DNA of 24,515 nt. It comes from a virus. This document shows, in pieces, positions 18,119 through 23,501 of this stretch (position 1 is the first letter of the stretch; the number at the start of each line of letters is the position of its first letter). The notes below the pieces were generated by a model, which made no database searches, was not told the DNA's origin, and saw only the letters and a program-made list of their open reading frames with translations. The translations under genes and the position numbers were made by a program. Location: positions 1 to 24,515 of IMG/VR virus record IMGVR_UViG_3300043467_000033, one strand, 5' to 3'.

Positions 18119-18759
18119 AAAACGTTTATTGTTTGATTGCTTAAAGTTGCGAATGTATTTGTTGCTACTTGTGTTCCGTCTATTTGTACGTTGAAAGTAG
18201 TATCAGGTAAAACTAACAAGCCACCGCTTGCAACTGAAGCAGTATAAGTTAAGTTAGAGTTTTGAACGGTTGCGCTTACACAAAATGGAGAGCTGCTGTC
18301 GTTCTCGCAAATTGTCATTTCGTTAGGGATCAAGACGTCAAAAGTCATTGTCCATCCGGCAAGGTAGTTCTCAAATCTCTCAGTAAAAGGTTCACACGTT
18401 GGATTGCCGTCAACCACGAACTCTAAATTCCACAAATTGCCGTGTAACATTTGGTCATAGCAGCGATTTAAGATTGCCAGTTGCGTGTTGAGTACGTCTT
18501 GCTCGTTTGAGTTACCGACATAAACGTCAGTTGTAGCTTTCTTGCTGATGTCAACGATGTCCATAGCAATCAACGAGAGGTTGTAACGCACTACGTTGGT
18601 CTCGAAAGATACGTTGTTAGTCATTAAGTGTACAAGCGGAAAGATAGTCTGCTTGTTTAAATCCACTTCAAAGATATCACCCTCAGTAGTCGTGTTGACT
18701 AATGGGTCATTATCAAAATGCCATTTAATTAATTCCAATACTTTATAGAATCCTGTCAT
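18109..18759 (-). CDS. Tail protein of unknown type (tail terminator-like place)
   Basis: 216 aa. The first ~150 residues are a compact α/β region (F-Y-K-V-L-E-L-I-K-W-H-F-D, F-P-L-V-H-L-M, N-L-S-L-I-A-M-D-I-V, Y-L-A-G-W-T-M-T-F-D-V), and the last 50 are a Ser/Thr/Val strand-rich tail. A core of this size with a strand-plus-helix N-terminus and a 'W-x-M-T-F-D-V' strand is reminiscent of tail terminator/completion proteins, but I do not claim a family. The start overlaps the stop of the frameshifted product by 4 bases, and the stop overlaps the fibre-like gene by 10 bases. Cys near residues 126, 151 and 160 are present. The context is the tail block. Confidence 0.55.
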   Translation of the reverse strand: MTGFYKVLELIKWHFDNDPLVNTTTEGDIFEVDLNKQTIFPLVHLMTNNVSFETNVVRYNLSLIAMDIVDISKKATTDVYVGNSNEQDVLNTQLAILNRCYDQMLHGNLWNLEFVVDGNPTCEPFTERFENYLAGWTMTFDVLIPNEMTICENDSSSPFCVSATVQNSNLTYTASVASGGLLVLPDTTFNVQIDGTQVATNTFATLSNQTINVLWQ

Positions 18760-22687: not shown

Positions 22688-23215
22688 TTATATTAAATCG
22701 TAATCTTGGTTAGTAAAATCAGTATAGTCTTCTCCGACTTCTTCCTTTAGTCGTTCTTTGCAATTCTTTAGCGTGTTAAATATCGAAGTTAAGCTGATGC
22801 CTGAGTCTTTAGCAATGTCTCTCATTGATGCGTTTCCTTCCTTGTAGACTTTAAACAACATTGAGTCATACCAATGCCAATTATCCATCTCTTCGTGTAT
22901 CCTGATATGCAATCTTTCAAGTGCTTCGTGTTTTTCTAATTCACAATCAACATCTGCAACTCCTCTTACTTCGTCTAATGATAGAAACTGAACGCTGCCC
23001 GTTTTGTTTATTTCAAATGCTCGGTTGCGAAGCATCATCCACATCAAAGCAATGTTTGGTTTACCATCTTTGATTATCTTCTCCTCGTAGTTGTACTTTA
23101 CGATTCTCAGGTAAACATCCTGCACTACATCTTCGGCAAGGTCTTGCTCTCCAAATGAACGGACTATCTTTACCCATTCTTTGTGGTGGTCTGCTAAAAT
23201 TTTAAGTGCATCCAT
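22688..23215 (-). CDS. Phage sigma-70-family RNA polymerase factor
   Basis: 175 aa, similar in layout to ECF-type sigma factors. Region 2 covers about residues 1-70, with D-L-A-E-D-V-V-Q-D-V-Y-L-R-I at 25-38 (core RNA polymerase contact) and W-M-M-L-R-N-R-A-F-E-I at 59-69. A linker follows, then region 4 at about 100-155 with a helix-turn-helix (S-M-R-D-I-A-K-D-S-G-I-S-L-T-S-I-F) that would bind the -35-like element. It is the first gene of the long packaging-tail-head transcription unit and follows the promoter at 23231..23261. It probably redirects host polymerase to phage promoters at a later stage. Its own target promoters were not identified. Confidence 0.8.
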   Translation of the reverse strand: MDALKILADHHKEWVKIVRSFGEQDLAEDVVQDVYLRIVKYNYEEKIIKDGKPNIALMWMMLRNRAFEINKTGSVQFLSLDEVRGVADVDCELEKHEALERLHIRIHEEMDNWHWYDSMLFKVYKEGNASMRDIAKDSGISLTSIFNTLKNCKERLKEEVGEDYTDFTNQDYDLI

Positions 23216-23216
23216 T

Positions 23217-23252
23217 GACTAAATTCTAAACAAATATAAGACTAAATTCTAA
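23217..23252 (-). repeat. Two 13-base direct repeats around the -7 box, operator-like
   Basis: On the minus strand TTAGAATTTAGTC occurs at 23240..23252 and again at 23217..23229, so the copies are 23 bases apart, about two helical turns. The first lies between the -33 and -7 elements and the second over the probable start of transcription and the leader. Each copy contains TTAG twice, 7 bases apart. Such placement is typical of an operator. The small helix-turn-helix-like protein coded just upstream (23280..23501) is a candidate binder. Confidence 0.65.
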
Positions 23253-23261
23253 TCACACAAA
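23231..23261 (-). promoter_or_regulatory. Bacteroidota housekeeping-type promoter before the sigma factor gene
   Basis: Read on the minus strand, TTTG (23261..23258), a 19-base spacer and TATATTTG (23238..23231). This is the TTTG-N19-TAnnTTTG pattern of Bacteroides and Flavobacterium primary promoters, with every defined base matched. The leader to the ATG at 23215 would be about 10 bases. It lies just after the terminator of the small-gene cluster, so it should start a new transcript that runs into the packaging and structural genes. Confidence 0.8.
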
Positions 23262-23267
23262 TAAATT

Positions 23268-23290
23268 AAAAAAGCCACTTTAAAGTGGCT
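23268..23290 (-). terminator. Intrinsic terminator at the end of the small-gene cluster
   Basis: On the minus strand the perfect palindrome AGCCACTTTAAAGTGGCT (23290..23273) runs into TTTTTT, then AT-rich DNA. The stem overlaps the stop codon of the helix-turn-helix-like gene. The site separates the early-type cluster from the sigma-factor transcription unit. Confidence 0.85.
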
Positions 23291-23501
23291 CTAGGTTGTT
23301 GGAGTAAATTTCTCTCGTTACGTAATTATCTATCTTGTGTAAGGTTGATAAGGTTACGTCTTTGCCTTGTAGGAAGTTGTTTACTTGAAACTGATGCATC
23401 TTTAGTCCTTTGGCTTTTATGTCTTGGACTATTTGGTTTCGTGTTTTTACAAGCAGTATCCTATTCAGTTGCTTTCGGAGTGTGTCATCATCAATGTACA
23501 T
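23280..23501 (-). CDS. Small helix-turn-helix-like protein, possible repressor
   Basis: 73 aa. Residues ~10-60 are helical, with K-T-R-N-Q-I-V-Q-D-I-K-A-K-G, M-H-Q-F-Q-V-N-N-F-L-Q-G-K and T-L-S-T-L-H-K-I-D-N-Y, an order that fits a Cro/XRE-type helix-turn-helix of minimal length. The ATG at 23501 shares one base with the stop of the preceding gene (TGATG), so translation may be coupled. It is the last gene before the terminator and the sigma-gene promoter with repeated sequences. A role in controlling that promoter is inference. The fold is judged by eye. Confidence 0.6.
   Translation of the reverse strand: MYIDDDTLRKQLNRILLVKTRNQIVQDIKAKGLKMHQFQVNNFLQGKDVTLSTLHKIDNYVTREIYSNNLEPL

Follow-up and report, generated by a model that had tools for sequence, protein, structure and literature searches.

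A conserved pair of putative operator dyads at the promoter of an ECF-like sigma gene in uncultivated phages

The window, i.e. the whole stretch of DNA that was analyzed, comprises 24,515 nucleotides of an uncultivated virus (IMG/VR record IMGVR_UViG_3300043467_000033, positions 1 to 24,515). Near its end the minus strand carries a gene for a small protein of 73 aa, an intrinsic terminator, and the promoter and coding sequence of a sigma-like protein of 175 aa; these features are summarized in Table 1. On the minus strand the promoter region reads TTTG-TGTGATTAGAATTTAGTCTTA-TATATTTG-TTTAGAATTTAGTC-A-ATG, the ATG of the 175-aa gene being at 23215. In Flavobacterium psychrophilum the -7 box TAnnTTTG spans -12 to -5 (PMC9723704), and the positions of the two dyads O1 and O2 relative to the start, given in Table 1, follow from these coordinates. 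The last G of the -7 box is also the first base of O2, and in the minus-strand reading of the promoter the box is overlapped by the second T of CTTA-TATA. Since O1 lies upstream of the predicted start and is not transcribed, its dyad must act in DNA rather than in RNA; with a leader of only ~11 nt as well, action of the repeats at the RNA level was ruled out. The stem of the terminator overlaps the last codons and the stop of the 73-aa gene, an overlap that may account for the near-invariant C-terminal NLEPL of the 73-aa protein in most relatives.

Table 1. Features at the sigma-gene promoter (positions in the window)
Feature	Position	Strand	Basis and remarks
73-aa small HTH protein, proposed repressor	23280..23501	-	AF2; HipB/CI/C-protein-like matches; last gene of early block
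Intrinsic terminator AGCCACTTTAAAGTGGCT-T6	23268..23290	-	Sequence; kept in relatives; after 73-aa gene, overlaps its stop codon
-33 element TTTG	23258..23261	-	Sequence; 19 bases from -7 box
O1, upstream candidate operator dyad GATTAGAATTTAGTC	23240..23254	-	-28 to -14, in -33/-7 spacer; includes 13-mer 23240-23252
-7 box TATATTTG, Bacteroidota TAnnTTTG	23231..23238	-	Sequence; consensus and position from PMC9723704
Predicted transcription start (+1)	23226	-	Inferred from -7 box position; ~11 nt before ATG
O2, downstream candidate operator dyad GTTTAGAATTTAGTC	23217..23231	-	-5 to about +10, over probable start; includes 13-mer 23217-23229
175-aa divergent ECF-like sigma factor	22688..23215	-	TIGR02937 E 5e-7; Foldseek ECF matches; first gene of unit leading to terminase

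The wider gene order was taken from a near-identical relative of 33 kb (G001), all of whose assigned genes are on one strand. Its early genes encode, in order, a DnaA domain IV protein (PF08299), a DnaD-like loader, a helicase-like ATPase, a C5 methyltransferase, an ERF annealing protein, an exonuclease, an SSB and the 73-aa protein. The terminator follows and separates this early block from the sigma unit, which continues with ParB/methyltransferase and terminase. Upstream of the early block there is a consensus promoter, at 18752. The earlier note on this DNA had raised the possibility of a lysogeny or early/late switch. An early/late switch is plausible from the gene order, with the 73-aa gene last among the early genes and the sigma gene first before terminase. 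Lysogeny is unsupported, because 19 relatives of 29-33 kb, which may be fragments and for which other lifestyles are possible, gave no match to the tyrosine or serine recombinase families (PF00589, PF00239); control genomes were matched by the same families. The 73-aa and sigma genes are also co-directional, with a terminator between them, rather than a divergent pair of repressor genes with common operators as in a CI/Cro switch.

The 175-aa protein matches TIGR02937 over residues 7-159 with an E-value of 5e-7, below the curated 42.9-bit cut-off, and the top Foldseek matches of its model (pLDDT 74, a middling confidence) are ECF sigma factors, with E-values of 0.004-0.01. Like ECF sigma-70 factors it consists of regions 2 and 4 only, in the size range of ~160-190 aa. 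These matches uphold the previous designation of the gene as a sigma gene. When the gene (22688-23215) is aligned with its relatives, conservation is much higher in region 4 than in region 2, which suggests domain exchange or a changing promoter specificity. One relative (L051, 4001-4525) has a sigma gene with an in-frame stop (TGA) near residue 152.

The AF2 model of the 73-aa protein, built on an alignment of 32 sequences, has a pLDDT of 91 and a pTM of 0.79. Its helices (residues 5-15, 21-30, 37-44 and 51-67) form a compact four-helix HTH domain of the lambda repressor-like kind (XRE/Cro/HipB). Structural matches, all with modest scores, include HipB, the N-terminal domain of TP901-1 CI, 434 Cro, C.Esp1396I and Aca (anti-CRISPR-associated) proteins. 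The VIA Z-scores against CI, HipB and C proteins are 5-6, and values below 8 can reflect a common arrangement; the top protein by VIA Z is the eukaryotic OCT4, and Foldseek E-values exceed 0.5. The best curated profile is NCBIfam HipB (E-value 0.008, 16 bits against a cut-off of 79), and a Pfam search returned no relevant family. Judging from the model, we are confident that the predicted fold is a lambda-repressor-like four-helix HTH, in agreement with the earlier description of the upstream gene product as HTH-like. Two versions of the protein had no match among isolate phages, and no annotated relatives were present in the families and the isolate-phage collection searched; the 73-aa protein would be a new regulator family with an ordinary mechanism.

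The 13-mer TTAGAATTTAGTC occurs at 23217-23229 and at 23240-23252 on the minus strand. The starts of the copies are 23 bp apart, as previously reported, and 10 bases separate them; the placement of one copy between the -33 and -7 elements and of the other over the probable start is likewise borne out. The window contains no further copies with up to one mismatch, and TTAGAATTTAGTC is the sole exact 13-mer repeat within 40 bases anywhere in it. In simulations at the same dinucleotide content the chance of such a repeat is ~0.9% per 65-nt region and ~5% in a window-sized sequence, so that the repeat in the window alone is suggestive rather than proof.

Protein searches of IMG/VR identified 61 loci with a sigma-like protein and 49 with a 73-aa protein. 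When the upstream regions were lined up, both copies were found at a constant spacing of 23 bp, even where the sigma proteins are only 54-57% identical. In still more distant relatives (73-aa proteins ~64-67% and sigma proteins ~48-50% identical) the copies read GATTAGATTTTCATC and GATTAGAATTTAATC and are again 23 bp apart. Among 63 distinct homologous promoters the mean identity of the downstream 15-mer to the sequence at offset -23 is 11.4 of 15, against 7.6 at the next best offset, and in every one of the 63 at least 9 of 15 positions are identical between the copies. The repeat is thus conserved in related phages, one of the two points on which the earlier note had let its proposal stand or fall. 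The maxima of the mean dyad score, taken over all 15-mers tested, coincide exactly with the copies (4.75 and 5.06 of 7), and the conserved unit is a 15-bp dyad with the consensus GNTTA-N5-TARNC. Positions G1, T3, T4, A5 and T11 of O1 and G1, T3-A7, T10-A12 and C15 of O2 are invariant in 63/63 distinct relatives. The copies match perfectly (13/13) in 3 of the 63 promoters; the alignments indicate that the exact identity in the window is incidental and that the dyad is what is conserved. One relative (L465) has a perfect palindrome, GATTAAAATTTAATC. Covariation within the dyads could not be shown, since most of their positions hardly vary. As the relatives share descent, the locus counts are not independent events, and the weight of the conservation evidence, to judge from these comparisons, is in the several divergent clades and the changed downstream genes.

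We consider it hardly credible that the repeats are due to chance in an AT-rich promoter, or are conserved only as promoter or translation-start sequence. The simulated frequencies of ~1% in the region alone and ~5% window-wide leave some room for chance, and Flavobacterium johnsoniae is known to have AT-rich motifs at -18 and -28 as well as A-rich positions ahead of the start codon (PMC6847099), but the G, TTA, T and C positions are kept in both copies, at a fixed 23 bp and with coincident dyad peaks, across clades. On sequence grounds the repeats are a conserved pair of putative protein-binding sites, a candidate operator, flanking the start signal of the sigma gene.

The genes that accompany the pair were determined at loci found by protein similarity alone, in which the pair was scored by a position-specific matrix scan. 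A total of 135 distinct 73-aa genes, each with at least 200 nt downstream, could be counted, and 133 of them are followed by the pair at exactly 23 bp and at no other distance. Included in the 135 are 62 genes from the distant search, whose loci had no part in building the matrix; the pair is present at 60 of these. The two 73-aa genes without a recognisable pair (L440 and L449) belong to one lineage. Four relatives of the sigma gene (L185, L186, L277 and L278) have neither the 73-aa gene nor the pair; taken with the 133/135 linkage, they indicate that the pair is linked more closely to the 73-aa gene than to the sigma gene. The operator proposed earlier can therefore be retained as a putative one, given the dyad pair, its fixed 23-bp spacing, its deep conservation and its linkage to the 73-aa gene.

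A scan with the DNA pattern O2/-7 yielded 80 listed loci, which were selected by the motif and thus test its neighbours rather than the motif itself. The pair, the 73-aa gene and the sigma gene occur together at 65 of these. Three loci have the pair and the sigma gene with no 73-aa match on contigs that end upstream, and the 73-aa gene is present wherever pair and sigma gene occur with sufficient sequence upstream. Another four (L326, L281, L294 and L315) have the pair and the 73-aa gene with no match to the sigma gene. L326 is truncated downstream; the other three begin with an 83-aa gene and have, ~400 bases further, another kind of sigma-like gene (190 aa in L281 and L315; TIGR02937 E-value 0.0015). 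L283, L339 and L352 have both genes and a poor score at 23 bp, their type having a 24-bp pair. L305 and L311, short contigs without a 73-aa gene, have portal and protease genes with a perfect pair between them, and the last three loci are chance matches inside other genes. The perfect pair is of GATTAGATTTTAATC, 23 bp apart around TAATTTTG (L305 999-1036 and L311 2136-2173, both on the minus strand), in another phage.

Because the repeats sit at the sigma gene promoter, and autoregulation is common among sigma factors, they could be recognition elements of an autoregulating sigma factor. This we regard as highly improbable, since the pair stays where the sigma type changes or sigma is not the first gene (L281, L294 and L315), and relatives of the same sigma that have no 73-aa gene have no pair either; the dyad symmetry is moreover unlike a -35/-10 pair.

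A search for the repeat at other promoters of the phage had also been suggested. The matrix scan of the long relatives gave no second site of comparable strength, and a pair-pattern scan of the 19 relatives of 29-33 kb found no record with more than one operator pair. A few records have one middling-score site each, each in a single genome; a site at ~20309 in G001 (13.2 bits) was considered as a further operator and was taken as chance, being present in one genome only. In L395 a second pair-like site (GATTAGTTCTTAATC / GTTTAATATCTAAAC, 23 bp apart, 304-341) is found on the strand opposite to the 73-aa gene, overlapping the 3' end of the preceding ORF.

Neither DNA nor protein searches of isolate phages matched the sigma gene. 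The best cultured relatives of the terminase are from Flavobacterium phages (53% identity), and the annotation around one of these names no sigma factor. The promoter type and the terminase relatives make a Bacteroidota host probable. Neither the literature on ArpU nor that on phage-encoded sigma factors in Bacteroidetes contained anything directly relevant. In a sample of 395 cellular genomes, which held no positive-control genome, the 73-aa protein was not found. The pair was found in one of the 395, of the class of a Bacteroidetes MAG. This match (L470; G240 C2:90264-90301) immediately precedes a gene similar to the ComM/YifB family. A real operator bound by a host-encoded regulator or by some other phage protein would suit both this site and the perfect pair of L305 and L311, on contigs without the 73-aa gene. 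We nevertheless consider such a binder unlikely: 133/135 loci with the 73-aa gene have the pair, and its presence in only 1/395 sampled genomes, from which the true hosts may differ, argues against a common host regulon.

We propose, with a probability of about 0.72, that O1 and O2 are bound by dimers of the 73-aa early protein and that this binding represses the promoter of the sigma gene and late operon. What the analysis shows is the architecture of the sites, their conservation and linkage to the 73-aa gene, and a confident HTH model; the identity of the binder, its dimeric binding, the repression and its timing are inferred. The protein would be made at the end of the early operon, and each 15-bp dyad would be bound by one dimer, the two dimers probably lying side by side ~2.2 helical turns apart. 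With O1 in the -33/-7 spacer and O2 reaching from the last base of the -7 box across the start site, bound protein would block host RNA polymerase at the promoter, and the block would limit or time expression of the ECF-like sigma factor and of the late operon (packaging/structural) that follows its gene. Since the promoter looks host-readable and the repressor gene is the last early gene, shut-off may follow a first burst rather than hold from the start. A point against this reading is that the protein, encoded at the end of the early operon, may become available only when the promoter has already fired. Against the 73-aa protein as the binder stand its weak profile matches, the L440/L449 homologue without a pair and the L305/L311 pair without a 73-aa gene.

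The 73-aa protein might also activate the sigma promoter, or activate and then repress it, in the manner of R-M controller proteins, which act both ways (PMC4321490). A distant clade has other sequence in place of the -33 TTTG but retains the -7 box and the dyads, and its promoter may therefore need assistance. In the clade of the window, however, both consensus promoter elements are present, and both sites overlap positions that polymerase must occupy, neither being upstream of -33; we find activation quite unlikely.

A more speculative extension of the repressor reading, which we think doubtful, is that a phage-specific repressor family serves as a pulse generator for one promoter. The sigma/late promoter would be readable by the host polymerase at entry and would be switched off once the last gene of the early operon has been made, so that the length of the early operon would act as a timer. 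The twin operator would have been reused elsewhere, before unrelated sigma-containing operons and at a capsid-region promoter (L305/L311).

Among solved systems the nearest parallel is the controller protein C.Csp231I, a likeness of mechanism by analogy and not of membership. C.Csp231I binds two copies of a 15-bp site, CTAAG-N5-CTTAG, and in both C.Csp231I and C.EcoO109I an HTH controller is combined with two 15-bp sites having 5-bp arms and an A-rich 5-bp centre (PMC4321490). The OL/OR operators of these systems, like O1 and O2, lie before a start codon. The gap between sites is 18 bp for C.Csp231I and 25 for C.EcoO109I, as opposed to 8 bp in the phage. The C gene is autoregulated, whereas the phage target would be the next gene, a sigma factor; the phage sites, unlike those of the C proteins, lie on either side of the -7 box, and no R-M pair emerged as a target. 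The single-domain HipB-like and Cro/CI-like repressors have the four-helix HTH that AF2 predicts for the 73-aa protein, which also matches the HipB profile weakly; its sequence is too distant for family assignment, no HipA partner is seen and no integrase was found in the long phage relatives. ArpU/RinA-type proteins of Gram-positive phages are late regulators encoded just before terminase. By gene position the 175-aa protein resembles them, as a sigma-like regulator that is the first gene before the packaging genes, but it keeps ECF-like regions 2 and 4.

Most likely, then, this group of uncultivated phages, so far undescribed, uses the locus as a compact on/off switch, and one whose type is familiar. 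These probable Bacteroidota phages, which have no isolate relatives, thereby gain a candidate regulator, a candidate operator and a testable point of early-to-late control. The signature GNTTA-N5-TARNC, occurring twice at 23 bp around TAnnTTTG, could serve in the annotation of such phages and in locating the regulator on fragments, and the 73-aa protein, if its binding is confirmed, is a possible small repressor for Flavobacterium genetics. In the distant clade (L255-L276) the -33 TTTG upstream of O1 gives way to a stretch that resembles TGTTGAAAACTTTTTAGCAAC and is conserved, perhaps as a site for an activator; one relative encodes a DnaA domain IV protein.
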